Below are positions 1 to 59,601 of a DNA stretch of 64,000 nucleotides, piece after piece. The DNA comes from Bryum argenteum. Its lineage: Eukaryota > Streptophyta > Bryopsida > Bryales > Bryaceae. Under the pieces are notes generated by a model. The model saw only the letters and a list, made by a program, of their open reading frames with translations, was not told the DNA's origin and did no database searches. The stretch is from NCBI GenBank assembly GCA_037043015.1, contig CM073329.1, positions 16,384,648 to 16,448,647 of the forward strand, written 5' to 3'. The position numbers and the translations under genes were made by a program. How positions within the stretch are numbered: position 1 is the stretch's first letter; the number at the start of each line of letters is the position of its first letter.

Positions 1-2098
1 TTGAGCTTTTCTACCACTCAGGTGAGGTACTCATAACATCAAGATTGGCTCTTGGGTGACTCTTTAGGACTTTCTTTAGGTGACTCTTTGGGTGAATTTC
101 TAGGTGCTAAATGGCCATAAACAACTTTAAATTCCCTGTCCTATATTTACTAAGGTAGGAACTCCTAAAATGATCCCATGTCCAATTGAATTTTCACCCT
201 TGTGTTAAGTTAATATGTTCGGGAACATGTACATTTGTCATTGATAAGAAGTCCAAAATGCTCTTGCACTTGGTTACAAGAATATGTAAACTTGGCAATC
301 CTAATCGGAGGAAATAAGGTAGGATGTTCAAATGCCGCATAGGACCACAAAGTACATAGGAACAAAAACAACACAATGCGGTTATTTGACCACAAGGTAT
401 ATCATAGCTTCAAAATGTAATGTATCCTATTAATAAACCTACTACCTTCACTTCCAAAGTCCAGAATTAAATCAAGAGAAATTCAAAATAAATGATTCCA
501 ATTGGACAAATCTCTTACATATTCTATACATTCTCCATAATTGTTTCCCTTGGCCACTCCCCAACGAGCTTGCCGATATGAAAATTGTGCAATTTGCAAA
601 CATCATACCTTAGCAATTGGAAGCGTTATGCCTCAACCTTATACAAACAATTTTCGAAACTTGTACGCACCTCAAGTAGAAGCCTGTTAGGAGGAGCAAC
701 CAATAGAACTCCCGGGGAAGTGATAGTGCCAGTAATGAGAGTTCAAACAAACAATTAGACTCATAGTTCAGGTAGGTGTACAACTGGCGGCAGCCACCCA
801 CCCCGCCATGATGGCAAACCTTTGCACTACATAAATCGGAGAGGTGCCCATTAGCTCTCTCTCTTTTTCAGTTGAATTGCTTACCTTAACAAAGCCTTGG
901 CATCTCCCACTCTTTCTGTTGCTCAGTGCACGTTGCTATTTAAATTTGTTTTACTTTCGTCGTTCGTTTTATAGCATTTACTGTGGGCTGCATTGGTAAT
1001 ATAGGCTTCCTGCGCTGTTGTCCGCACTTGCTCTCGTCCCTGCTTGCTCCTCTGCAAGCTCCGCCATCCCAGTTGCGCTCCCATCAATCTTTTCCTGCCA
1101 ATTCGCTTCGTCACTGTGATCTAATCCGAATTCATAGCTCATCGCAAATAACGCGGTGGAATTTGGTGGCGGTACATAGCTTTCCGTGGCTTCTCCCCCT
1201 GTTTCTGACCTCGGGTACACCACTCTCCTACGAACTTGATTTTCTTCGACGACTTGAGAGCTTCATTCGATCTCTTCAATGCGCTTTTTATTTTAGTGCT
1301 TGGTAACAATTGGAGTCGTCTGTATTTTAGGGTTTTATTGAGGGAAACGGACTCGTGAGCTCTGATTGCGGCTTTCGTACTCCGCTGATTTTTCAGACGG
1401 TTTACGTTTCGCTTTGCCACTCTGGTTTGTTAGAGGATGAGTCCATGTGTATGTGTGTAAGTTAGGCGTTTGCGAGGAGGAACTCTGTTTTGGTGTAAAA
1501 CCTGGAATTGTGCTTCATTTATAGAAGTGGCAGTGAATAGAAGAGAAGAGGAGTATGCTTTGAAGCGAAGTATCTGTTACACTTTCACGTAGCGTTCCTG
1601 AGGTCACGTAAGTTTTTCATTTACGATTTGAGGCTGCTACGAGTTGGTTAAAAAATCCGTCACTCTTCTGAATTAGTTCGTACGTAATTGCTCTTCCTGT
1701 TTTCTCTTGAACTTCTGTAAGCGGTATTGTATGACTCTGAAGTTAATCGTAGAGCATTGTTCGGAGTGTTGATTCAAAGTTGAAGGAGTACGTGTTACTT
1801 GCTTTCGTTCGAGTTGTTCTTTTATCTTGGAGCTTTTTTCGAGGTCTGTACCTTGTTTCGTATGCTTTTCGATCAAACGTAGGGTTTGCGCAAGGGTTTG
1901 GAATGTTTGTAACTTTTCGTTGAAGGAAGTGTGTGTGTATGTGGAAGAGCGATGAGATAGATGGCGTGGTGTGTAAATGTGTATTGCGCTAAGTTGTGCT
2001 TTGTTGCTACTTTTCAGTTGTTCAGAAGAAGCGATCGGCTATAAGAGTTGCGGCAGTTGCATGAAGGTGTCTTTTCTCGAACTCCGTAGTTCCTCAGT
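1..2098. other. Intergenic region and 5' leader of the ATG18-like gene
   Basis: I see no convincing coding sequence here. The open frames on both strands lack family motifs and overlap each other. The last several hundred bases, T- and G-rich with no long plus-strand ORF, are likely promoter and 5' UTR of the gene starting at 2099. A pyrimidine run at about 856-870 followed by CAG could be an intron acceptor or simply low-complexity sequence. Confidence 0.5.
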
Positions 2099-3886
2099 AT
2101 GGCCCTAGCAGCGCCTATGCAAGTATCGCCCTCACAGCAGGGTCGTCATAACAAGTTTAGTAGTGATTCGATGTCGCATTCGCCAGTCTCCTCCACTTCG
2201 GGGCTTACAACGTCTCCTCGGAATTCACCCGAGCGGGAGGATTCACCCGAAGCGCCACCTGTAGAGGAAGCTCTTCTCTCAGTCGGGTTCAACCAGGACT
2301 ACGGATGTTTCGCATGTGGCACACAGACAGGGTTCCGCATCTACAACTGCGATCCCTTCAAGGAGACATTTCGTCGTGACTTCGATGGTTCCGGCATTGC
2401 TTTAGTGGAGATGCTATTCAGGTGCAACCTCTTAGCTCTTGTGGGTGGTGGCAAGGCACCTCGGTATTCTCCCAACAAGGTCATGATTTGGGACGATCAG
2501 CAGAGTCGATGTATTGGAGAGCTTTCGTTCAGGAGTGATGTTCGAGCCGTCCGTTTGCGGAGGGACAGAATTGTCGTCGTGCTCGAATTCAAGATCTATG
2601 TGTACAACTTTGCCGATCTTAAGCTGCTTCACCAGATTGAGACCTTGTCGAACACTAAGGGTATCTGTGCTCTATCTCCTGGGTCAACGTCGTGCGTCCT
2701 TGCCTGTCCTGGGCAGCGCCGAGGGGAAATTCGGATAGAGCTCTACAGTGTGAGGAAGACAAGGTTCGTGCAGGCGCACGACTCGTCTTTGGCTTGTATG
2801 GCACTCACCCAGAATGGTGCATTTTTGGCCACAGCTAGTAACAAGGGCACCCTCATTCGCATCTTCAGTACTGTGGATGGTTCGAAGTTGCAAGAGGTAT
2901 ATCAGCTTTTTATGCTGACCATAATTTTACTATTTCTTGTAATTTCTACATTGTTAATGTTTTGAAAACAATCGCTGGTAGGGTTGATCCTAAAGGATAG
3001 TTCTATATTGACACCGTAAATTACTTTTTGCAGCTTCGACGAGGAGCTGAGCGAGCAGAGATTTATAGCATTGCCTTCTCTCCAAATGCGCACTGGCTTG
3101 CTGTTTCTAGCGATAAGGGTACCGTGCACGTATTTGGATTGAAGTCCACAACTGAAGAAGCTCGGTCTGAGACAATTACAACGACGGCGTCACCGTCTTC
3201 CAATGAAACGGCACTAGCATCTGGTGGAAGCGGCGGGTATCTCCTTAATGCTCCGGCATCATTATTGTCATTTGCAACGGCAAATGCGGGTTCATCGTTG
3301 GCCTTCATGAAAGGTGTCCTTTCCTTTCACCTCCAAGAAGCAATTTGTATCTTACTCAAAACTGCGTGCATCTGGGACTGCTACTGTAATGGCTACGTCT
3401 GCTCTAGTCAAGTCACTTATACTCGAAACTATCTCATGTGGTAATCATACACTGACTTCAAGGATTTATGGCAGGTGTTCTGCCGAAGTACTTCAGTTCA
3501 GAGTGGTCGTTTGCACAATTCCGTGTGCCTGAAGAGACGAAGACAATTGTTGCATTCGGCCCGCAGAAAGATACTATTGTCATTGTTTGCGCGAATGGCA
3601 GGTTTGTCTTTTCAGATCATAATGATTATGTTGCAACTTATTTTTTTACAGCTGTATTGGATCATTTATAGTACTATCATTGTTCCGACTTGGTTCCTTT
3701 TGATCATCATCCTTTGCTTTTCCATGTAAGTATTTGGCTAAGAGCCTATTGTAACAGTACATCTTGTGGGCTTGGTTCAGTTACTACAGGTGCTCCTTTG
3801 ATAGTACCAACGGTGGGGAAATGGTACAAAATGAATTTGAGCGCTTCTTGAAGAACGATGCCCCGGAGGAAACTGTCACTGTTTAG
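2099..3886 (+). CDS. ATG18: ATG18/WIPI-like PROPPIN autophagy protein (four exons)
   Basis: PROPPINs are seven-bladed WD40 propellers that bind PI3P and PI(3,5)P2 on the phagophore and help recruit the ATG2 lipid-transfer machinery. Exons read as 2099-2896, 3034-3313, 3475-3601 and 3781-3886, all with GT-AG borders and consistent phase, giving 436 residues. The phosphoinositide-binding motif appears as [16 protein letters not shown] at the start of exon 2 (about residue 267); the L form instead of yeast FRRG is normal in plants and animals. It is followed by [17 protein letters not shown], a PROPPIN signature. Residues 1-45 form a Ser/Pro-rich leader. The C-terminus, after a GSYYRCSF stretch, ends in TVTV. 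A low-complexity Ser/Thr/Gly loop follows blade 6, where the family has its membrane-inserting loop. Start chosen as the first ATG of the open frame. Convergent with the ferredoxin gene. Family assignment is firm; the exact paralogue (a, c or d type) is not resolved. Confidence 0.93.
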
Positions 3887-5295: not shown

Positions 5296-5874
5296 CTAGT
5301 GAGGTTTGGGAACATGACCGTCCACAGCAAAATTGCGGGTGGCTGCCGGAAGAGCGAGGCGCAAACCGTCGAGCTCAGGCTTGGCAATCACTTGGCAACC
5401 CAAACGGGAGGTTTCTGTCAATCCAAAGGCAAGGTCCAACATGTCATTCTCTTCGTCCGAAGGCTCAGGAAGCTTGTTGTAAAGCTCCTCATCGGTGATG
5501 ATAACGTGACAAGTGGAACACGCCAAGGAACCCTCACAAGCTCCTTCCAGTTCGATGTCATTCTCGTGCGCTGCTTCGAGCATCGACATCCCCACTGGGA
5601 CCTTAATCTCCGTCTCCTCGCCGTCTTTGTTCACGAACGTCACTGTGATCTTCTCCGCATTCGGCTCTGGCTTCGCAGCTGCTGAAGTCGACAACGGTCT
5701 CAAAACAGATGAACCCCAAACCCTAGTGTAACTTCTGTCTGAAACCCTAGTATAATTTATCTCCGATACCCTAGAATACAAGGAGCTCGCTGCATTCAAA
5801 TTGCCACCATTTTGCACCCTCCTCGATTGCAGCAATCGCACGGCCAGGCTCCGTAACCCCGCCGCTCCCCTCAT
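5296..5874 (-). CDS. MFDX: Mitochondrial adrenodoxin-like [2Fe-2S] ferredoxin
   Basis: A vertebrate-type ferredoxin that passes electrons from NADPH-adrenodoxin reductase to the mitochondrial Fe-S cluster assembly machinery and to biotin and other synthesis steps. The single exon encodes 192 residues, close to plant MFDX proteins. Residues 1-70 are Arg/Ser-rich with few acids, like a mitochondrial presequence. The ferredoxin domain runs from about residue 75 ([14 protein letters not shown]) to 180. Cluster ligands are visible as [10 protein letters not shown] (C-x5-C-x2-C) plus the distal Cys in TSRLGCQVI. The acidic [13 protein letters not shown] segment matches the reductase-binding helix. 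Start is the first ATG. Six bases past the stop codon, CAG/GTAAGT on the minus strand looks like a strong intron donor, suggesting a spliced 3' UTR. Three near-identical units containing CCCTAG lie in the presequence coding region. Confidence 0.93.
5700..5782 (-). repeat. Telo-box-like short repeat within the ferredoxin presequence
   Basis: On the plus strand the motif ACCCTAG(T/A)(G/A)TA recurs three times at about 24-base spacing (near 5708, 5743 and 5768). It encodes the repeated peptide (Y)(S/T)RV(S/W). The core AAACCCTAG matches the plant telo-box. It may be an expansion within a tolerant presequence or may have a regulatory role; the latter is speculative. Confidence 0.55.
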
Positions 5875-6793
5875 CTCTATCGAACACCCTAATCAGTGAT
5901 CGAGCGCGTGATCAAGGTGAAGAGCCAAAATTCAACAGAGTGGCTCACAATCGGATTTCAACTTGAGGATCCCCACAAGAGAGTGTCTGCAAATTGAGGT
6001 TTAAGCTTGAATAAGCAGCAGGAGATGAAGTAATAAGAGAATATGTAGTCTATTTCGTTCGCAAAGAATGGTGAAAGCTCCAGAAGAGATTGGCAAAAGT
6101 GTGACGATGCCGTGGAGGAAATAAACGACCCTCTTGAGTGAACGGCAAACAGAAATCCCTCAGCCTACAGTAGTGTAAGAACCAGTTGATGGTCCAGGGG
6201 TGGAAAGATTCTATTCGGTTGTGGTGCGAGGTGATCGAATCGCGCTTCGGACGGCATCAGCACACCAAGCGTGTGCATAGATTCACAAATTAGGGTTTTG
6301 CTCTCAAATGGCATATCCTCGCATCGAGTTTCTGCAGCCAAGCACACAAGAGCAGCTTCATTATGAACGACAACAGATTCTGTTCCAATTTCCTCGCAGG
6401 AGATGGATGAAACTATTCTCCGTGGATGACTTCTTAAATGCAATGCGTTAGACATGTAAGAATATTTGACAAATTGGGATTTTGAAACCTGAACCTGTTT
6501 TCGATTAAGTTATCACGTTTTCGATGGTGCGACAAGTGGACTTGCGATTGTAAATATGCTTCCCACATTCATTTCCTTTTCAGGCGTTTAGGCTTATAGT
6601 AACCAGAAGTTCCATTCGGAATGCATAAAAGAATATGGAAGCCAAATTCCTTGTTAACATACAGATACCAGATACGATACAATGCATGGACAAGGCCTTT
6701 CCAGCACTGCAACGGATGACCTCATGTCATTAGATGTTGACTGTAAAATGCTCGATGAAAGCTACAGACCCACGTTCAAACTCTCTCTCTGTG
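5875..6793. other. Intergenic region upstream of ferredoxin gene
   Basis: This should hold the ferredoxin promoter and 5' UTR. A 96-codon ATG-initiated minus-strand ORF at 6165-6455 has no recognisable domain and I do not call it as a gene. A short CT microsatellite precedes the MITE at about 6778-6790. Confidence 0.4.
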
Positions 6794-12226: not shown

Positions 12227-14252
12227 CAGTACCCTCCAACAAGTCTTGCAACCATTTTGTGAACTCTTGAAATTCTCTAATTCATTTTCAAAATGGGAGG
12301 ATTTTATCAAATTTATCCTATTAAATCTTTTGTGTTATGGACCCTTCACGTGTTCATAAAATGTCAATGTTAAAAAACAAAATCTCTATTTTTGATGAAT
12401 TATTTTATCTTTTTCACTTAATTTCAAAAAAAATTAACTGAGAAATATATATGATGATTTTTTAAAATTTGATTGCACCAATCTATAGGATATATCATTG
12501 TTCACATTCTTGGTATTACAAAGATGCATACTATGTAGGTAAAATTCTCCTCTATGTGGCTCTAAAGTATTTTCATAGTTTCCATTCATTCATATTCTAG
12601 GCTAAGGAAATCAAACTCATATATTAAATCAAAATTTGATCAAATAAAGTCAAATAAGGTATCATTACAAAGCTATAGTAGTATAGAAGCCTAATATGAT
12701 ATGAAGTTTACAATATGTCTTACTCACTAACAAATATTCTACGAAGAAATGGAACACCTACTACCATCGAGTGCTACCACCTTGTTTGCTATTACGACTT
12801 TCATCCGGGTTGGCATTGTTGAAATCAACTTCTTGATGCTTTCTTGAGGTATATCCCCCCAAGCCAGATTGACTAATGTCCACATTTCGTCTTTGTTTCG
12901 TGGTCTATTTCTCTGTTGCACTTGATCTTTAACTTGCTTCCAGACATTCTCTATAGGATTAAGGTCAGGAGAATTTGGTGGCCATTCAAGCTTTTTCAAT
13001 CCAAGTTCTTTGTCTCCAATCTTTTTGTATATTACTACCATGTCTTTGGAGCACCATCCTTCATTAAAATGAGGTGCTCATAGTGGTCATGGTGCCAATA
13101 ATAATGCTCTAATGCTCCTTGAGATACTATCTCTACAAAGTCTTTGGCAGTCGTCTATTAGGAGGAATTAACACCAAATAAGACTTAGAAGAGCCAGGTG
13201 ATAGCACCCCATACCATAATTGAAGTCCTTCCGGATTTGAATGTAGGTGCTAAGCAATTGTAGTTGTAGCATTCATATGCTTTTCGCCAGACACGAATTT
13301 GGCGTGATGGTTTTCCAACTTCAAAGGATGACTCATCGGTCCAAATCACATTACTCCAATCGTCAATCGTCCAATGCAAGTGCCCCTTTGCAAAAGCCAA
13401 CCTCTTTGCCTTGTGTATGTCACTCAAGAATGGTTTCTTCACTGCAATGCAACTGTTAATACCAAGCTCATGAAGCTCTTTACGTAAAGTTGACATGCCC
13501 ACGGAAGATGTCACATTTCTGCACAATTCTGCAAGAGGAGCACGACGATTACTACTAAGATCTCTATGGAGCCTTCTCCTATCTCGATCACTCATGTTTT
13601 TCGGCCTACCGGATCTACTTCTTGGCAATACAGAGCCACTAATTCTAAATCGCTTGAGAATCCTTGAAATAGTCGATTTTGGCCTTCCTACAATGTTTCC
13701 AATTTCACTCACCGACATGCCACCTTTCTGCATACCAACTATCATGTGTCGTATATCATTTGATACATAACTCCTTGTCATGGTGCACAATCCTCAAACA
13801 ACACTTACATCCACAAAAAGTTTGATAAAAAAGGTCCTAACAACAACACAGAAACGATATGTTTGACAAACAGGACTTGTTGCACACAACTTTTCTAAGA
13901 AATGTGTACCATCAAGATGACTTACAAACAAGTATGTGTATCTCTGGACCCTCCCAAGCTCAAACATACTCAAAATCTGATATCCCAGAGAAGAAGTGAT
14001 CACATTAAGAAGGGTACTCTTTTCCAAGATTTTTAAGCATGATGGCAATTTTGGTAGACACATGGCAATGGATGCCTCTTTATATTTAGAAAATGCTTGG
14101 TGTATGAAGGTAACTGGAACACCTTCCATGATGCAAAAAATCTCATGGAGATGTGATGATTATCATGCCAACACCACCATTCTAAAACAGGCCATGGGAT
14201 ATGTTTTAAGTGAAAAAACAGAGTGTGTTGCAACACTTGTTGGAGGGTACTG
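12227..14252 (-). mobile_element. Tc1-like DNA transposon, complete ends, 2026 bp
   Basis: The termini are CAGTACCCTCCAACAAGT plus (C/G)TTGCAAC, inverted, 25 of 26 bases identical, flanked by TA at 12225-12226 and 14253-14254. Element size fits Tc1 elements of about 1.6-2 kb. Its transposase relic is on the minus strand. A 963-bp MITE at 6796-7758 shares the termini. Tc1-type elements are scarce in seed plants, so copy number and distribution in this genome are of interest. Confidence 0.9.
12739..13790 (-). pseudogene. Tc1-type transposase, frame-broken
   Basis: Transposases of this family cut and paste the element at TA sites with a DDE catalytic triad. The N-terminal part (13790-13185, start MCTMTRSYVSN) has a helix-turn-helix (MSVSEIGNIVGRPKSTISRI), a GRPKNMSDRDRRRL linker and the first acid in WTDESSFEVG. 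The second acid is in MKDGAPK and the Glu in SPDLNPIENVW, about 34-35 residues later, which is the Tc1 spacing and not the D39D of typical plant mariner elements. The frame changes about three times between roughly 13190 and 13030, so no intact protein is encoded. The C-terminal piece is open from 13041 to 12739. Loss of function is clear from the sequence. Confidence 0.88.
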
Positions 14253-40628: not shown

Positions 40629-41319
40629 TTCAAGGTATACTATGAAGTTTCAATGGATGACCTATTTTATCCATTTCACTTGAATTTGTGTTGCCATAAA
40701 ATTGCTTACAAAAAATTCTATATATATCTTTAAATTAAAAAAATAACTAAACTACTTTTTTAAGTATACTCAAAACGGTGAGAAATGTCCCGATTTTAAC
40801 TAATTAAAGGTCGATTTGCACCCAAAATATACGTAGTGGTAGCAAAAGTCTTAACATTGAATATACTTTATAATACAACTAGTTTCTTTGTTACACCTGT
40901 ACTACCACCACAGTGACACCAATGATATATCTATGTTTGAATAGACCTTAACCCTTAAACGCCCGAGCGGCCCTGAGACGGCCGTTCCAGAAGTTTCGGC
41001 CACTGTAGCCTTTTCATCTTCGAACAGAATTGGTCAAGGCTTGTGTCAAACTCGTCACGATCCGACAGCCAAGTGATCCCAATCATACGCGTGCGAAATT
41101 GTGAAGACTTGGAGATGCAATTTGTAATCCGCTTGTTACGGTTGAGGAGAGAGCAAGAGTTGGAGCTGCCCGATGCTCTACAACTTAGTTCCGATCGCCA
41201 TTGAGCTGCAGCGTTGCGCATGAGCGAGTAACTTTTGTGCAATCGCCTGTCAGAGCGGTTTAGCTCCTTTTTTAGATTTTCCGTTTCCGTTGTTGCAACG
41301 GTTTTGCAACGGCTCCGCG

Positions 41320-41976
41320 ATGGCACCGGAGTGGATTCGTCAACGACATGAGCTTCATGGTTCGGTGTTTCGAAAGGAACTAGAAAATTGGCTATTGATT
41401 TCGCAAGGTCAACGTGAAACAATTGTAAAGGAGTGTTTGCTCATGCTTGAAGAAGATTATTTGCTTTCGCTCCCTCTTCCGCCCGGTGTTGTGTTACCGC
41501 TTTTCCTGGTCCCAGGAATTCCCGCTTCCTATTCAGGCGACAAATCGTCTCTTAGCTGCATTGGAAGGAGAGACGGGCCGAAGGCGATTGCCAGGGGTTC
41601 AGTGACAAGTTGAACAATCTTATCCGAGAAGTTTGGTGGCCGGATGAATTATCAGACACACTCCATGGCGACGGCCTCAGAGAACGAACATCTTGGTGAG
41701 TCACAATTCAACCACTCTTCTGATTCGCAATTAGGGTTTGTTAGGACTTCGCCAATGCGTGTAGGTGGGTTCTTCGATAGTGCGACTTCGCCCACCGTAA
41801 GAGAAGGGCAGAGCATTGGGCCTGTGGAAAGATCGAATATCGCAAGAGGCGAGAATTTCGAGTTTGAACACGCTTCGCAGGCGCTTTCATCTCCCCATGG
41901 ACATCACCGATGGCAACATCAAGATGCATCTACAGAGCCAGAACAACCGGAAATACAAGAAACGGTGAGAATTTGA
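41320..41976 (+). other. Exon-like ORFs upstream of the transposase inside the piggyBac element
   Basis: An ATG at 41320 opens a frame MAPEWIRQRHELHGSVFRKE that, allowing one frame change near 41510-41610, continues through LNNLIREVWWPDELSDTLHG to a GTGAGT donor at about 41695. A second ORF (41644-41976, Ser/Gln-rich) ends at another GTGAGA donor near 41965, and an acceptor (TCGCAG) lies at 42912-42917, inside the transposase ORF. This may be 5' exons of the transposase gene or a captured host gene fragment. I recognise no domain. Confidence 0.4.
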
Positions 41977-42246
41977 ACCCTCTCATGTATTTTTGGGTTC
42001 GACCATTCATCACCGCCTTCTTTTCCTTTTTGGTATGTTATTCAAGCTATGCAGATTGTTCGAGACGGCCATCACAATACTGCAGACGCTTTTGTCCTTC
42101 CGTCTTGTGGCAGCCTGAAAGCGAATAGCTTGTATCAATTCTGAAAGGGAATAGCTTCTTGACGTTCTTTTCTATTTTCTGTTAGAATGCTTGAATTGTT
42201 CGTAGGTGGAGTAATTGTCTATGGCCAATTGTTGCACCCCTTCACA

Positions 42247-42458
42247 GGTGTATCCTCTAACGTGCATTATATTTTTTCCTACTATACGAATGTTTGGGCA
42301 ACACTACAAAGTCATAAATTTCTAGAGTAGTAGTCCGGAAGTATTTCAGTCAGGTGTATCCTCTAACGTGCATTATATTTTTTCCTACTATACGAATGTT
42401 TGGGCAACACTACAAAGTCATAAATTTCTAGAGTAGTAGTCCGGATGTATTTCAGTTC
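42247..42458. repeat. Recent tandem duplication (two 105-bp copies)
   Basis: The unit starting CAGGTGTATCCTCTAACGTG and ending around GTATTTCAGT is present twice back to back, with essentially one base difference (GGAAGTATT versus GGATGTATT). Such identity implies a young duplication within the piggyBac element. Confidence 0.92.
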
Positions 42459-42908
42459 AAATGAGCTGGTACCCGTATTTAGTTTGCAGTACTTCTTACA
42501 ATGTTTAAAATTGCTTGTGCACAATTCTCTACTACTTGTCTTTTTGCATCATTGTGGTCAGATAGGAAGCATATTGTGATCCTCGCGGAGATGAAGAATC
42601 TACTGAATGAAAGCACACTTTGTCTTACTCAAACGTCCCTTCTGAGGCTAGAAAACACCTGAACCTTGCCAACTCGAGGCTCTGAAAAACGTTTCCAATT
42701 TCAATGCTTTTGTACTTGCTCAGATTCGTGTCCATTACATAATTTAGGGCTTGATTGGTTTTGTCGAAAGGATTTGCTTTTTGAAGTATCGTGTTTGAGA
42801 GCGAAATTTTTCAATTGACTAAAATTTTGAATCCCTGTGACTTTACCCGGTATTTGGTGACGGATGGTTCGGACAGCGGGAGTTGATGCCGATGTTGATT
42901 ATGTTTGA

Positions 42909-45567
42909 ATGTCGCAGGGTCAGCAGTTCCCAGGAGGAAAACGAGGAGTTGCCGATCAAAGATCAAAAGCCTACAGAAGGGGAGCAATCGACATCCCCGA
43001 CTCGTCCGCTTTACATCAGCCATCTGATGCAGCCTATGATCAGAGGCTAGTCCTCTGCGGTTGTGATTTTCCTGCAGGGATAGGGAGATCAATGAGGCAA
43101 AGGTTCGAGCTTGACGAAGGGGGCACAGTGGTTGCTTTGCCGTTTTCATCACTCCGTGAGATGGTGCCTGCTAGGCAAAGCAACAGTAACCAGGCGCGAG
43201 AGACCGCAATAGGAGAGCTACATGCCCAAAAGAAGAAGACCATCAAAAGGGGAAGTGGTGTCATCAATCAAAATACCACAAGTAAGTCCCTAACATTACC
43301 ATTAGCCCACTATCTAAATTCTTCCAATTTGGATTCTCCACTTGAGAATCCTAATGGGGTTCATTGTGGGCTTATGCAGGAACCGCGTGAAGTGGGAGGA
43401 GAAGTAGATGAGCTACTAGAGGCGCTACAAGATGAAAATATTTGCATTTTAGATAGCGAAGCTTCAAGTCAATTTGAGCTTTTATGGACTAATGGTTGTG
43501 TACCTCAAAGAAATGTGATGTTGAGGAGTGATGTGAACAAACATTTCAACATTCCCTTGTATGACATTGGATGCTTAGGGAGATGTGTCATTGTCCCCAA
43601 ATGTGAATTACCGGATTTGCATATTCCATTGAATTGTGATGCATGTTGTTTGGATATGTTTTGGGGTACCGTGGTTGATGAATATTATGGTCCAATGTTA
43701 GCGATTGAAATGCTACGTGTTTTATTGTTTGGCCCTTGGGGTACATACAATGTGCCCGAAGCGGTTTGTAAGTTTGTGGATGAGAATTCGGTTTATGGAA
43801 AGGTAAGTGAAATTCAACTATGGGGTTCTAGGCTTCAAACCCCTAGTCCATCCAACGGAGATACATCCGATTCTTCATATGAACCTAATCAAGATTCCCC
43901 CTCATATTGTAGTGACATGGATAAATTAGATAATCTAGTATTGGCACCTAATTCTCGTAAATGGTTTATAAATTCTTCACCGACAACCAATGAACTAGGT
44001 TTAGATTACAATTTTTCTTTTACGGAATTCTCAAAACTACCGGTTTCCAATCAATTTGCCCAAGGCATGTGGAACTCACCGTCGAACGTCCTGCCCCCCG
44101 TTGTGTGGTTGGGAGGCAAGCAAGGTTTAGTAGATTACTTGCCCAATTGCAAAAGTCCTTTAGATTTTTTTTTACTATTTTGGCCTAATGAAATTTTGGT
44201 GAGAATTGTGAGAATGAGCAATTTGTATGCCACCTCAAGCCAAGAAGAAGGAAAAACAAGGGGAGGACGAAATTGGACGCCAATGACGGTAAAAGAACTT
44301 CTAACCTTTTTTGGTGTGTTGATGTATATGGCTACTAAAAGTTACCCAATGTTAGATTACATTGGTCTAAATCTTATGAACACCTATTTCAAACGGAAGC
44401 AATAAAAAAATGTATGAAAAGAAACCGATTTGAAGACATTCTAAGATGTTTGCATTTGGTGGATAACCAAAATGTAACAACCGCTAAACAAAGTCCTAAT
44501 TACAACAAATTAGCAAAAACAGAATGGTTAGTCAAAGAACATAATAAACTATGTTCTATGTATTATTACCCAGAACAAAATGTATGTGTTGATGAAATAA
44601 TGATAAAATATACAGGTAAATACGCCCCCATCCGTCAATATGTGAAAGCTAAACCAACACAATATGGTTTAAAAATATGGTGTTTAGCTAATTGTGAATC
44701 GAAATATGTACAAAGAATAGAAATCTATTGCGGAGCTAGTGAATCACAAGAAGAGGGCAATGTTGGTGGAAGAGTGGTGCTAAACCTAATGGGAGGTTTA
44801 GAAGGTAAGGGGCATATTGTCACGTGTGACAATTCCTTTACTTCACCTAACTTATTTTGGACATTGTTGGAGCGTGGAATTTTTGCTACGGGAACATGTA
44901 GGACAAACCGGATTGGATGGCTTCAAGCACTTACAAACTCACCGGCGGCGGGATCCCGAGGGCAAATTTGGTACCGGGTCCATGCAAGCGAGAAGATGTG
45001 CGCCGTCACGTGGCACGATAACAAACCGGTTTCATTGCTTTCTACTCCGTGTAGTCCAATAGATAATACAAAATCTTTGTTTATAACCCGCTGGCATGTA
45101 GGAGGGAAAATTCAAATCCCGGCTTCTCCAGTTTTGTTACATTATCAAGAGCACATGAGGGGTGTTGATGTGCATGATCAATTGCGCGAGTACTATTCTT
45201 TGCAAAGAAGGGACCACAAATGGTGGCATAAGATTTTCTTACTATTTTGGATCAATCTTTTTTGAATGCATACATTTTGTACAAGCAAACCATGGTAAGT
45301 AGAAACGCTAAACCTATGTCACATTTGAGTTTCTATGTTGAAATTGCTAACTCTTTGACCAAGATGCCCAAAGAGAAACCAACATGTATGTCCGGGGCGG
45401 CGGTTCCAAATCCCGGAAAACTGCACTACACCATGGCGTGGAGCGGCGAAAATCGTACCCGGCGCCGATGGGTAGTTTGTAAAAAAAGACGCCAATGGTA
45501 TTGTCTCACTTGCAATGTTTCCGTTTGCATGGGTGAGTGTTTTGTAATTCACCACTCACAACAATGA
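42909..45567 (+). pseudogene. piggyBac transposase (DDE_Tnp_1_7) with two frame breaks
   Basis: piggyBac transposases excise and insert precisely at TTAA. The first frame (42909-44405) carries a long Ser/Asn-rich N-terminal region and the start of the catalytic domain (WTPMTVKELLTFFGVLMYMA). The reading shifts near 44355, after which MKRNRFEDILRCLHLVDNQ follows (frame 44414-45265). Catalytic acids are visible in VCVDEIMIKYTGKYAPIRQY, in HIVTCDNSFTSPNLFW and in HMRGVDVHDQLREYYSLQRR, matching D268, D346 and D447 of the prototype. A second shift near 45245 precedes the frame 45247-45567, which has the C-terminal Cys-rich zinc finger (WVVCKKRRQWYCLTCNVSVC). With only two breaks and all catalytic acids kept, decay is recent. 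Confidence 0.92.
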
Positions 45568-45639
45568 CAAATTTTATGTATGTTTTTTTTCTTTTATTTT
45601 TTACATTCCCATGTATTCATTTTTTCCCCTCAATAAAAT

Positions 45640-45885
45640 AAACTCACACATACTATCTTATTTTATTGCAAAAGTGTGACATGTATGCATTTCTACTTTG
45701 AATAAATATGTGTATTAGCATACGAATGGACACTTCATTTAGGTCGGCCCCTTTCACTAAAATAACTCACACATCTTAGTTTTATTTTATTGCAAAAATC
45801 TAATATGTGTACATTTCTAATTTGAATAAATATACAATATATGGGCATACGAAAGGACACTTCATTCACGTCCACCCCTTTCAAA
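45640..45885. repeat. Imperfect tandem duplication (about 120 bp, two copies)
   Basis: AATAAACTCACACAT...TTATTTTATTGCAAAA...TTTGAATAAATAT...GGCATACGAA(T/A)GGACACTTCATT...CCCCTTTCA occurs twice (from about 45645 and 45763), with perhaps 85% similarity. It is older than the 105-bp duplication in the same element. Confidence 0.8.
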
Positions 45886-46300
45886 GGGACCGAAGCTTCT
45901 ATCTATCTTCTTTCTATCTTGAATGGGCCCAAATTACATCTCAACCCTTGCTCTCTTAGATAATATATAACATTTTTCAAAATAACTCATTTGAAGCCGT
46001 GGCCATGAGTTCGAAGCAATTGGACTCAAATGACTCCCTGGACAGTTCAAGAAAAAAAAAAAAAACAAACGACTCGGCTCCCTGGATCTGTTCTCGGTGG
46101 AAGGATTCTCAGTGGGTCCCAGTGATGAAAGCCGGGTGTTCCCGTCCTTGCCCAGCCAGTGCAGATTCACTCTCAATTCATTGCTCCGTATCTGCAGGCC
46201 CGACCCCACCTGTTGGTCTGCCCAATTCCAATTGATTCTTCCACAGATGCTCCACAGATGCTCAGGGCTGCCCGCTGGAGGAGCCTCGGGCATTTAAGGG

Positions 46301-47234
46301 TTAAGGAAATAAAGTCTAAAACCAAACCCCTTACATTAATAAAATGCAAGGCATATCTGCTTTGGAACATTTTTAATTGCCATAAGAATTTCAACACAAG
46401 GACAAGATTTGAATGCAAACCCAACCAAAGAAAGAACATCATAGATAAACATTCAAAGAAAAGGATATATTTCTTGATGTACAAGGTGTTTCTATAATCT
46501 AGAAACAGTGATCATCTGCAAACATATCTAGATCTTCTCCAATCAAAATCTTTCAAACAAGTTGAACTTTTTCCTTTGAATATATGCTAGATATTAACCT
46601 TTCTACATTATTCCACCACACGTCTTGCAAACTCCGCATAAATGATGTTTATAATGCACAAAACTATGGGTGATATTTGGCTCATTACTTCACAGCTATA
46701 GTGCCGGCCTTCTCCTTTATTCATTTTGACCGTAGGGGTGGACCCCACCTGAAAGCAACCTGGCGTCCACGTAGGCATCCAACGTGTAGCACCTGTCGGG
46801 CAATCCCGCGACCCGTTCAAATTTCAAACGGAACCCAAATTCCAAGGCGGAGCAAAGCAGGCAACGGCTCTTTGGCAACCAGCGGACAGTTGGTTGGGCT
46901 TCGTCGTTGGAGCAGGCAGGAAACTGCAGGGATCCGATGCACGCCTGCACTTCCCTCCCTTTCTCTCACTATCAATCATGAGCGCTCTCCTTTCTTAGGC
47001 CTCTAACTGTTACCGCGATCCCGTTGCCGATGCATCTTCCCTCTCTCTTGCTACCGCCATTCCTGCTTTGCACCCAAGAATTTCTCATTCTTGACTGTTT
47101 CATTGAGCCTTGCGAGAGGAATTGGACTATGATGGGGAGACAAGAGGGATGATCGTGCGCAGCCAAGACTATCGCGTACGTTGTTAGCTCGTTGTAGAGC
47201 TCTAGCGCGATCTTGATTGATTAGCAGGAGGTTT
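46301..47234. other. Intergenic region and promoter/5' UTR of the kinesin gene
   Basis: No separate gene supported. GC content rises from about 46.7 kb onward towards the kinesin start, as expected for a promoter and 5' UTR. Confidence 0.45.
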
Positions 47235-55794: not shown

Positions 55795-56297
55795 TAGTGA
55801 CTAGTTAGCTAATAGCATAGCAAGTCGCTATACCTCGGAAGGGGAGAGTAGTATTGTCCCAATTTCAATTTCCTCTTGTCCGGACATGGGTCATTGTCAT
55901 TATAAATGGACACTTCATTCACACTAAGCCTTCATTTTCTACTCTTCCACTTCCCTTACGAAGTTGACTCTACGGGTCGAAAACAAACTAGCATTTGATG
56001 ACCCTACGCAAATTGCACAGTACAGATTTGAGGAGGCACCACAGGTCGAAAACAACTAGCACTTGATGATGGGACCCTGTCGCGGCACCAGGTGTGTAAT
56101 CAACTCCGACTGGTTTAGAGAGAAACGTCCAGTGACAGAGATACGCAGTTTAGGATTTAAGTTGGGTAGGGGCCGCGCGAACGCGAGCCCCCGCTGCCAC
56201 AAATTATGACGTGTATGCCTCCCGTGGGAAGATACTAGGGCTCCCATGACCGTAGTGCAATGGAGACAGTTACCCTAGGCCATCCACCTTCCTGATC
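55795..56297. other. Possible continuation of transferred organellar DNA
   Basis: This would hold the 5' exon side of the group II intron. I cannot name an exon: the minus-strand frames next to the intron contain stops. A 25-base direct repeat (GGTCGAAAACAA, then CTAGCA and TTGATGA) occurs at about 55975 and 56044. Confidence 0.4.
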
Positions 56298-56801
56298 ATG
56301 GATAGACCCCGCCCAGGTAAGTGGATACTGAGGCTTTTCCCGAAGCCCTTATACTCACTGGGCTTCTACTGTGAAGACCATCGATATGGGATATATACCG
56401 GTAGTGTTTTTCATCCTGTAATGATCACCCACCAGAAGGACTTGCAGCAATTTGCGACCTACGGAGGAATGCTTACATGCTTTCCGAATATCAGTGCTCC
56501 CATTGTAACTCAAAATTCCAGCGTCAAATCCTCGATTCGTAGCAGTACTGATACAATGAGTAGCAACCTAAAATACAGGTGTTCACCTTCTTCAGATCAC
56601 AAACATCATAGTCATGAGATGAGCAAGCAGGTCTTTCCAACAACGAAGTTCGAGTACGAAACACGCGGGCAAATTCCTCGACTTCAAAACATACGAATGG
56701 CTCAATTGGAACAAACCTTGCCGACCACAAGTTTCCTAAGGAGCGAGCGGACCTTCATGCAATCAAAGCAGGCTTCGGATAATTTTGCGGGAAAAATGTA
56801 A
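56298..56801 (+). CDS. Hypothetical 167-residue ORF
   Basis: An ATG-initiated frame beginning MDRPRPGKWILRLFPKPLYS. No recognised domain; Ser/Thr- and His-rich in the middle, Lys/Gln-rich at the end. Its unusual length for this AT-rich DNA is the only support. It begins at the edge of the putative organellar insert and may be a chance frame or an exon of an unrecognised gene. Confidence 0.25.
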   Translation: MDRPRPGKWILRLFPKPLYSLGFYCEDHRYGIYTGSVFHPVMITHQKDLQQFATYGGMLTCFPNISAPIVTQNSSVKSSIRSSTDTMSSNLKYRCSPSSDHKHHSHEMSKQVFPTTKFEYETRGQIPRLQNIRMAQLEQTLPTTSFLRSERTFMQSKQASDNFAGKM

Positions 56802-57553: not shown

Positions 57554-58048
57554 TCAGTTCTGAGTACCATCGGAGATGCCGTTGAGAGACTGATCATCAT
57601 CGTCAGGGAAGTGAAACCCAATGACCCCTCGCTTCTCCCCTGTGCCCAGGCAGCGCGTGCAGTAGCTCATGCCGCAGCCGCGGCAGTCCCAGCACCACTG
57701 CGGCCACTCACCTTTAGGCAACATTGCCTGCTCCTTGAAATTGAGCCGCCCGCGTCCCGCACATCGATGGCACTTGACGCGGCCCTGGCCTTTGCAGACG
57801 ACGCAGGGCGGGTCGGGGATCACTCGCGGCTCCAGCTTCACATTCTCCTCCGACTTCACTTTCATGCTTCGAAACGGGCGAAGCCACACTCCGCCCATGA
57901 GGTTGAAACCCTCGTGCGCCGCCCTCACCTTGCATGCATGCCCTCGCTGGCGCCATTGCTGCTGCTGCCCTGTGCTTCTTGGATGCTCCACCACCTTCGA
58001 CGCCACAAAGGGCGAGGACACTGCGGATAGCCCTAGACTCTGCACCAT
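57554..58048 (-). CDS. DnaJ-type zinc-finger protein, probably plastid-targeted
   Basis: Proteins with only the DnaJ Cys-rich zinc finger (BSD2, PSA2, LQY1 and relatives) are thiol-disulphide or assembly chaperones, many in chloroplasts. The 164-residue frame from the ATG at 58048 starts MVQSLGLSAVSSPFVASKVV, a Ser/Val-rich, acid-poor leader resembling a transit peptide. The zinc finger covers about residues 83-145, with four CxxCxGxG-type units: CVVCKGQG, CHRCAGRG, CWDCRGCG and CTRCLGTG. MLPKGEWPQWCW and GVIGFHFPDD flank the last two and look like conserved signatures of a plant-specific subgroup. The third unit has Cys in place of the second Gly spacing, a small deviation. No introns visible. 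The specific client or partner is unknown. Confidence 0.82.
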   Translation of the reverse strand: MVQSLGLSAVSSPFVASKVVEHPRSTGQQQQWRQRGHACKVRAAHEGFNLMGGVWLRPFRSMKVKSEENVKLEPRVIPDPPCVVCKGQGRVKCHRCAGRGRLNFKEQAMLPKGEWPQWCWDCRGCGMSYCTRCLGTGEKRGVIGFHFPDDDDQSLNGISDGTQN

Positions 58049-59601
58049 GCTTGGCACACCTTTTCAATGATAATTTGGCTCCTAGTGCTCCGAACCCCGA
58101 CTGAGAACCCTTAAATTGAGCTTGACTACTCCAACACTCCTTCAATCGGCATTCGCAGGATGATTCTATCACATCAAGAAACATACATCCAGAACTAAAT
58201 CACTCAGAACCACGAATGATTATCACTTAACCCCATTTAAGAAAGATACAATCCGATGGAAAAGAAGCTGGCAGAGAAACAGAGCCTACATTGGTCATTT
58301 GCTTTAATCAGTATAACCGACCTCTTAGAAACAAACAGTCAAACCAAGACAATGCTTCAAAGAATTCAAAGTAGCAGATTATGCAACTTGTTAATTATTC
58401 ATATAATAGAAAAAGCACTTGGCTTTGAGTCGTTTGGCTGCCGCTCGAGCATCCAACGAATGTCTAACGTTTCTTGACAATTTGTTCGTATAATAGATGG
58501 TACTAATGAGTAAAACCAGAAATTCTTACCTTTTTCACTTCACAAACAGGCTTGACATTTTCTATGGCATTAACCAACAGTCTTAATACTGAGCTAGACA
58601 ATGAAAAGTTTCGTGAACAATAGCACAACATTCCGAAAATTCATCCCTTCGCAAAAATTGAAGCCCAATTCACAACTGAACAAATTTGACTCGAACCACA
58701 ATGCACCCTGTAACCCTGATAGAGAAGCAGAGGAATCTCAGTTCTGGGAAGGAAAGATTGGAGAGCCTGATAAAGTGTAGATTTGTCAAGCATCGCAAAA
58801 CCAAATTGATAAACTTACAACATAATTCGTCGTCCCTCAAAGCATAATGCGATTGAATTCGAATATCGCCTTCTTTCGCCCCTGACAATTGCAATTGCCC
58901 ACGGAAACCCATCCTGCAATTAGTATGAACTCACATACTCGTGCAGCGACTCTGCCGACCGAAGTCGCTGAAAATGCACTCCTCGAACACTGTTCCGGAA
59001 AGTGGTAGGGCTTTCTTTTTATATTGATGTCCTGTTCGAGGTCCGGAAAATCAGCGAGGTCCTCATCATCAGGTCCTGAAAAGCGAGGTAGGGGTGTCCA
59101 TGGGCTTCTTAGAAACACAACACTGACCTCTAAAGGAATTGCATCGTCATTGAATCAATTCGGTTCTCCACTGAAGAAGATGCAAAAGAAGATTCACTCT
59201 CATTCCTTTCCATTGCAATGTCGATGTGATTCTCACGAGCGCAAGAATTTGTTGTGAGGTGGATTTCACTACTTCGTTTCAGAGTCCTCAAACATATTGT
59301 CGGTGGATTTCATAGTGCCCAAGATGAGCTTCTCGTTTTCCAAATCTGAGATAACAAGGCTTGATTGCAATGTTGGTTAATTGTGAGTCTGAGAGTATGA
59401 AGTGTCATGTTTATTGATTTGGTTGGTGCGCGAGAGGATGAAACCCTAGAATTTGAAGATGTCGCGATACCACTAGAGTTGAGTGTTTGCGATTATGTCG
59501 TTCGGATTCTGAGTTATGGTCGGATTTTCTCCTTATTCTTTGTGAGTTTACAATATGATTATGAATTCGCCTCTTAAGATTTTCGAGTGAAGAGGGATAA
59601 G
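58049..59601. other. Divergent intergenic region between DnaJ zinc-finger and CHIP genes
   Basis: Serves as upstream region for both genes. A minus-strand frame at about 59170-58950 (EVSVVFLRSPWTPLPRFSGP, then DDEDLADFPDLEQD) has protein-like composition and a possible GTATGT donor near 58942. It might be an exon of an unrecognised minus-strand gene. I do not call it as a gene because no partner exon is evident. Confidence 0.4.

Follow-up and report, generated by a model that had tools for sequence, protein, structure and literature searches.

What a piggyBac transposon is doing in the genome of a moss, and whether it stands alone there, is the question raised by a 64,000-nucleotide stretch of Bryum argenteum DNA (the window; contig CM073329.1, C9:16384648-16448647 in a 258.8-Mb assembly of 25 contigs). 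An initial annotation, made from the letters alone, had placed a nearly intact, recent-looking piggyBac element at positions 40952-46300 and proposed that active relatives might exist. The analysis described here finds, with high confidence, that it is a piggyBac-superfamily DNA transposon of the autonomous, cut-and-paste kind, dead in this copy and one member of a large and probably old family resident in this plant. The window copy is itself ordinary, being one dead copy among many; the interest lies in the architecture and numbers of its family.

Ends, Target Site, and Transposase Core

The element spans 40952-46300 on the forward strand (5,349 bp) and is bounded by TTAA on both sides (40948-40951 and 46301-46304), the target-site duplication. 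Its left end, CCCTTAAACGCCCGAG (40952-40967, forward strand), and the reverse complement of its right end, CCCTTAAATGCCCGAG (46285-46300, reverse strand), agree at 15 of 16 bases, forming short terminal inverted repeats that start with CCC; beyond these outer 16 bases the similarity between the two ends drops off. The boundaries, ends, and TTAA duplication first proposed are thus borne out to the base, and homology with the closest copy found, L053, also stops at these ends. Exact copies of the 16-base left end number 171 in the assembly, against none for a reversed control, which excludes chance; a pattern with 16 fixed bases, TTAACCCTTAAANGCCC, occurs 3,633 times, again with no occurrence of its reversed control. 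Twenty full regions that matched the window best were sampled for comparison. TTAA beside recognizable ends is found on both sides in the window and in 10 of these copies, the other 10 having one or both ends missing, altered, or with more than three mismatches. In L053 and L046, an end-like sequence (TTAACCCCTAAA...) directly follows the right TTAA, as if one TTAA were common to two piggyBac-like elements.

Between the ends, the main transposase exon (42918-45567, forward strand) encodes a DDE_Tnp_1_7 core (44154-45244, forward strand), recognized by Pfam on two coding pieces (E=1.7e-10 and 4.3e-56) above the gathering score. In a profile search the core aligns with the solved transposases 6x67 (E=1.4e-29) and piggyBat, 9c0f (E=2.2e-27), of the Protein Data Bank (PDB), and the aspartate codons at 44591, 44828, 45167, and 45176 align with aspartates of 6x67. 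The latter is the T. ni piggyBac transposase and the aligned residues are its catalytic ones, in keeping with the initial view that the catalytic acids are preserved. The C-terminal cysteine-rich, zinc-finger-like region (45469-45555, forward strand; zinc binding putative) likewise aligns with its piggyBat counterpart. This finger was described at first as preserved, a statement that needs correction: its first cysteine is replaced by tryptophan at 45469, where all 17 of the 20 sampled copies that show the motif have cysteine. Later cysteines of the finger are missing in some other copies (L040, L041, L042, and L051). Judged from its sequence, the element is piggyBac by each defining feature tested, the lost first cysteine of this one finger excepted.

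The reading frame of the window copy is more damaged than the two breaks initially reported. The main exon has breaks near 44339-44348 and 45235-45241, and another is found near 41457-41517 in a conserved upstream exon that had been missed (ORF A; 41320-41695, forward strand; found by tblastn), making at least three. With these breaks, the copy very probably makes no working transposase. L053, on contig C8, is 96.7% identical to the window over 5,366 aligned bases, yet its upstream exon is open and its single main-exon break falls at residue 489, against 467-469 for the window in the numbering of the L052 protein; the breaks of the window copy are therefore not common to the two and arose after their split. 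The recent look ascribed to the element also needs correction: with its nearest known relative at 96.7% and the closest sampled pair at 98.4%, it is not especially young.

A Dispersed Family under Purifying Selection

A search of the genome for further copies, as the initial annotation had recommended, shows that the element is not unique but has many relatives, many with open frames. At the protein level, 131 matches were listed (128 of 768 candidates scored); they lie on contigs C1-C11, span identities of 40-92%, and include the match of the window itself and some elements in pieces. A Pfam family search gives at least 116 transposase-domain matches, all 116 above the cut-off (116 of 776 candidates scored), with an internal stop in 23. 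Both counts are lower bounds and biased to well-kept copies. In four of the 20 sampled copies (L044, L050, L052, and L054) the main exon is open throughout, as one frame of 875-915 residues, although that of L050 stops before the finger.

Ratios of nonsynonymous to synonymous divergence (dN/dS) for the main exon were taken from eight of the 20 sampled copies, picked for long open frames and so favoring intact ones, with pairs omitted from the medians when dS was 0.05 or less or undefined, or when fewer than 30 codons were available. The median is 0.08 in the DDE core (25 of 28 pairs kept) and 0.19 in the C-terminus (18 pairs); most kept core dS values exceed 1 and are saturated, so that the ratios are rough. 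Two close pairs omitted from the DDE median, L052/L043 and L052/L049, differ by few changes and give 0.69 and 1.05. Purifying selection on the transposase core is thus strong. Synonymous differences between lineages mostly exceed 1 while the core protein has changed little, which could mean either that the family has long been resident under sustained selection for functional copies or that it arrived repeatedly. Divergence is also mosaic along the element: ORF A differs by a dS of about 0.2 between L041/L049 and L043/L047, and the main exon by 0.02-0.04 between L043 and L049, as if parts had been exchanged between lineages.

The closest sampled pairs are L041/L052 (98.4%), L040/L044 (97.7%), L043/L047 (97.3%), and the window with L053 (96.7%). 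Homology in these pairs follows the element ends to within a few bases, and no flanking match reaches 200 bp; since it is confined to the element, the pairs look like separate insertions, not segmental duplications. Elsewhere in the genome, six domain matches have an identical score of 258.4 bits, as expected of near-identical copies, on scores alone. The 98.4% pair and these six matches together suggest recent movement, and active relatives are plausible. That the family is instead extinct, every copy a fossil and no transposase now made, is a possibility to be taken seriously even if it is the less probable outcome: the window copy is dead and the closest full-length pairs sampled are already 1.6-3.3% diverged. 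The full copies read, however, number only 20, all chosen among those most similar to the window, and the six identically scored matches lie elsewhere.

Two Conserved Regions Ahead of the Core

About 500 residues precede the piggyBac core, and they hold two conserved, selected regions. One is an N-terminal extension of about 250 residues within the main exon (43398-44150, forward strand), conserved in all seven aligned sequences, with a median dN/dS of 0.19 in other copies (24 pairs kept). The other is ORF A, some 125 residues long and marked by PGPRN.RFLFRR-like and WWPD motifs, which is 53-72% identical to L053 in six other aligned copies and has 150 matches in the assembly; at the DNA level, this region can no longer be aligned to the window in 13 of the 20 sampled copies. 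Across nine of those 20, the median dN/dS of ORF A is 0.21 in its own frame (16 of 36 pairs kept), compared with 1.37 and 2.11 when it is read in the other two (34 of 36).

Against Pfam, ORF A and the extension have no significant match, the hits to DUF1127 (E=0.84) and Opy2 (E=9.2) being noise, and against the PDB they have none either, matches with E<=1 starting at profile position 396 and a search at E<=10 returning nothing. An AlphaFold model of the extension from the window sequence alone (311 residues) shows no confident fold (mean predicted local distance difference test score, pLDDT, 31.6; predicted template modeling score, pTM, 0.19). Viral contigs scanned with two patterns, both from the extension and not from the core alone, gave 28 pattern matches, none confirmed.

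How ORF A may be joined to the rest is suggested by the sequence that follows it. All 16 copies that show the motif (15 of the 20 sampled plus the window) have a donor-like NG|GTGA at the end of ORF A, at the same place and in one phase. About 49 nucleotides further on, constraint appears to continue in another frame, pointing to a putative 49-nucleotide intron (41696-41744, forward strand; donor GTGAGT at 41696, acceptor placed by the frame switch) and a putative, weakly constrained linker exon (41745-41964, forward strand). In the linker frame, dS exceeds dN in nine of ten copy pairs and the ratio is the lowest of the three frames in eight of ten, the ten pairs not being independent. From its end at 41964, this frame continues in phase into the main exon at 42918 across a putative second intron of phase 0 at both ends (41965-42917, forward strand). 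Within that intron, sequence and BLAST overlap reveal a tandem duplication of about 106 bp (42246-42456) not seen in L053. The frame after ORF A was also considered as a second, overlapping gene, an idea set aside because a donor with a frame switch better fits a short intron.

Sister subfamilies have ORF A, then the extension, then the core on the same strand, in one frame as judged by coordinate phase and open-frame length. All three share a single frame at C4:25528671-25531484 (1056 residues), C8:13617065-13619791 (1059 residues), and C4:3817720-3820452 (994 residues), and ORF A and the extension share a frame at three more loci (C5:3580937, C2:31984781, and C3:5187931). Given the shared donor and phase, the frame switch, and the single-frame sister loci, a transposase of about 1,000 residues most likely begins with ORF A. 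It is improbable that ORF A and the extension are fragments of host genes, captured by one lineage and lying outside the transposase, a notion encouraged by their lack of Pfam or PDB matches and by the separate frames of ORF A and the main exon in the copies of the window subfamily that were read. Even where identity has dropped to 40%, ORF A has a match some 2 kb ahead of the transposase match (C2:7741958 and C2:7744131), the parts occupy one open frame at the three loci just named, and ORF A is selected in its own frame only.

Short Elements with the Same Outermost Ends

The family ends also delimit a population of much shorter elements. At 841 places, sequences of 356-384 bp run from TTAA to TTAA with both ends matched, against none for the control; because the pattern is its own reverse complement, the counts of 841 on the two strands refer to the same places. 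Among the 50 listed, 40 measure exactly 370 bp. Three of the elements were read and are 93.8-98.4% identical to one another; in each, all 21 terminal bases, TTAA included, are common to the window element, with no longer match reported, and the other 838 are inferred from their ends and length to be alike inside. Short copies that share their ends and TTAA with an autonomous family are the feature of piggyBac-type miniature inverted-repeat transposable elements (MITEs), and it is present at all 841 places. An internally deleted relative of the window element, 1.03 kb long, lies at C4:12941406-12942439. Both it and the short elements may have been moved by transposases of the family.

A Working Model and the Points against It

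Intact relatives of the window copy would encode a transposase of about 1,000 residues comprising ORF A, a variable linker, the extension, the DDE core, and the C-terminal cysteine-rich finger, with ORF A a separate exon, spliced on, in the subfamily of the window. By analogy with piggyBac, the finger, perhaps with N-terminal parts, would bind the element ends, and the aspartates would cut the element out and join it into a TTAA site. The same transposases would probably also mobilize the short elements of about 370 bp through the shared outermost ends. The added N-terminal domains perhaps serve end recognition or chromatin targeting. A more ambitious proposal is offered tentatively: this branch of piggyBac would be old, inherited vertically, and mobile to this day, and its transposase of about 1,000 residues, with two added conserved domains, would drive a MITE population of nearly a thousand copies.

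Several observations weigh against parts of this model. A search for an empty site found that the joined flanks of the window insertion match just the two sides of the occupied site in the same genome. The stretch just before the extension is under weak constraint, with a median dN/dS of 0.54 (nine pairs kept). For the putative spliced linker, one of the ten pairs clearly contradicts coding in its frame, stops follow the donor in that frame in L039, L040, and L044, and 49 nucleotides is very short for an intron. Sharing only 21 terminal bases with the window element, the three short elements read do not single out the transposase that would mobilize them.

Residence in the Plant Genome

PiggyBac is best known from animals (PMC10813416), and an element of this type in a moss might accordingly be contaminating animal, fungal, or algal sequence, or a single, very recent horizontal arrival. 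Such an origin is very unlikely and is already contradicted by the distribution of the copies. They lie on contigs C1-C11 of an assembly whose 90 chlorophyll a/b-binding matches support a plant host, dS between them runs from about 0.01 to more than 1, protein identity to the window falls from 92% to 40%, and likeness to the two solved transposases is limited to the core and finger. The contaminant that the initial annotation had allowed for is thereby argued against, and its central claim, a piggyBac transposon in a plant genome, is upheld; old horizontal transfers are compatible with these data. Still less credible is a domesticated transposase gene in place of a transposon, which purifying selection on the coding region of other copies might suggest but which is already refuted for the window copy by its three frame breaks, its position between TTAA-flanked inverted ends, and its place among many dispersed copies, although another locus of the family could be domesticated.

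Other Features of the Window and Genome

A second transposon remnant, the fragment of a Tc1-like element, lies at 13185-13793 (reverse strand), where an open frame encodes N-terminal domains of the Tc1 transposase type (HTH_Tnp_Tc3_2, E=9e-15). A U1 spliceosomal RNA gene (119 bits) is found at 56166-56324 (reverse strand). Host exons encode a PROPPIN (ATG18-like) WD40 protein (2090-2965, forward strand), a 2Fe-2S ferredoxin (5296-5892, reverse strand), and a DnaJ-type cysteine-rich match below the cut-off (57554-58063, reverse strand). Clusters of chlorophyll a/b-binding matches on contigs C2, C3, and C5 span only about positions 31-161 of the profile and are perhaps expanded stress-type light-harvesting genes.

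Comparison with Known piggyBac Systems

PiggyBac is a major tool of genome engineering, and the version in current use comes from an insect. If the model holds, a native plant branch, with its many open frames, precise ends, and distinct transposase architecture, would allow transposition into TTAA to be studied in a natural plant setting and might supply transposases adapted to plants, and its uncharacterized N-terminal domains would raise the question of what a piggyBac transposase can use beyond the known core. The engineering use itself is treated in PMC10905368.

Public protein databases contain moss proteins with a piggyBac-derived annotation. PiggyBac elements target TTAA and have ends that begin with CCC. 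CCCTT is the commonest start of such ends according to PMC10813416, whose abstract gives piggyBac as isolated from plants. Among sources on land plants, a repeat table for the fern Ceratopteris counts 1,230 piggyBac fragments (PMC6890710), one for the grass Stipa counts a single fragment (PMC8319324), and PMC10794571 includes piggyBac among the class II superfamilies of plants. These sources and PMC10813416 share the superfamily label with the window element but present no full-length plant element or transposase in the passages concerned. The titles, opening parts of abstracts, and passages of the open-access papers listed by the literature search contain no description of piggyBac in bryophytes, in support of the initial remark that such elements are little described in land plants, though subscription papers and repeat databases, outside this search, may catalogue them. 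One moss genome paper (PMC10619864) came up as a mention of piggyBac, but of its two matches the one shown is the word "piggybacking."

PiggyBac-type MITEs are listed among the MITE superfamilies of angiosperms in PMC10004981, and like those the moss elements are short plant elements of the piggyBac superfamily; here, in addition, 841 copies, three of them read, have the same outermost ends as the coding elements that accompany them in one genome. The coding family itself resembles piggyBac (6x67) and piggyBat (9c0f) in a core that aligns by profile, in the TTAA target and CCC-starting ends familiar from piggyBac, and, for piggyBat, in an alignable C-terminal cysteine-rich region. The solved chains are 594 and 578 residues long, whereas the moss family carries about 500 residues ahead of the core, and the profile matches begin only at positions 396-405. 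The window element is also 5.3 kb long, compared with about 2.47 kb for piggyBac in PMC10813416. Its long N-terminus and its size are what distinguish this moss element from the piggyBac systems compared here.

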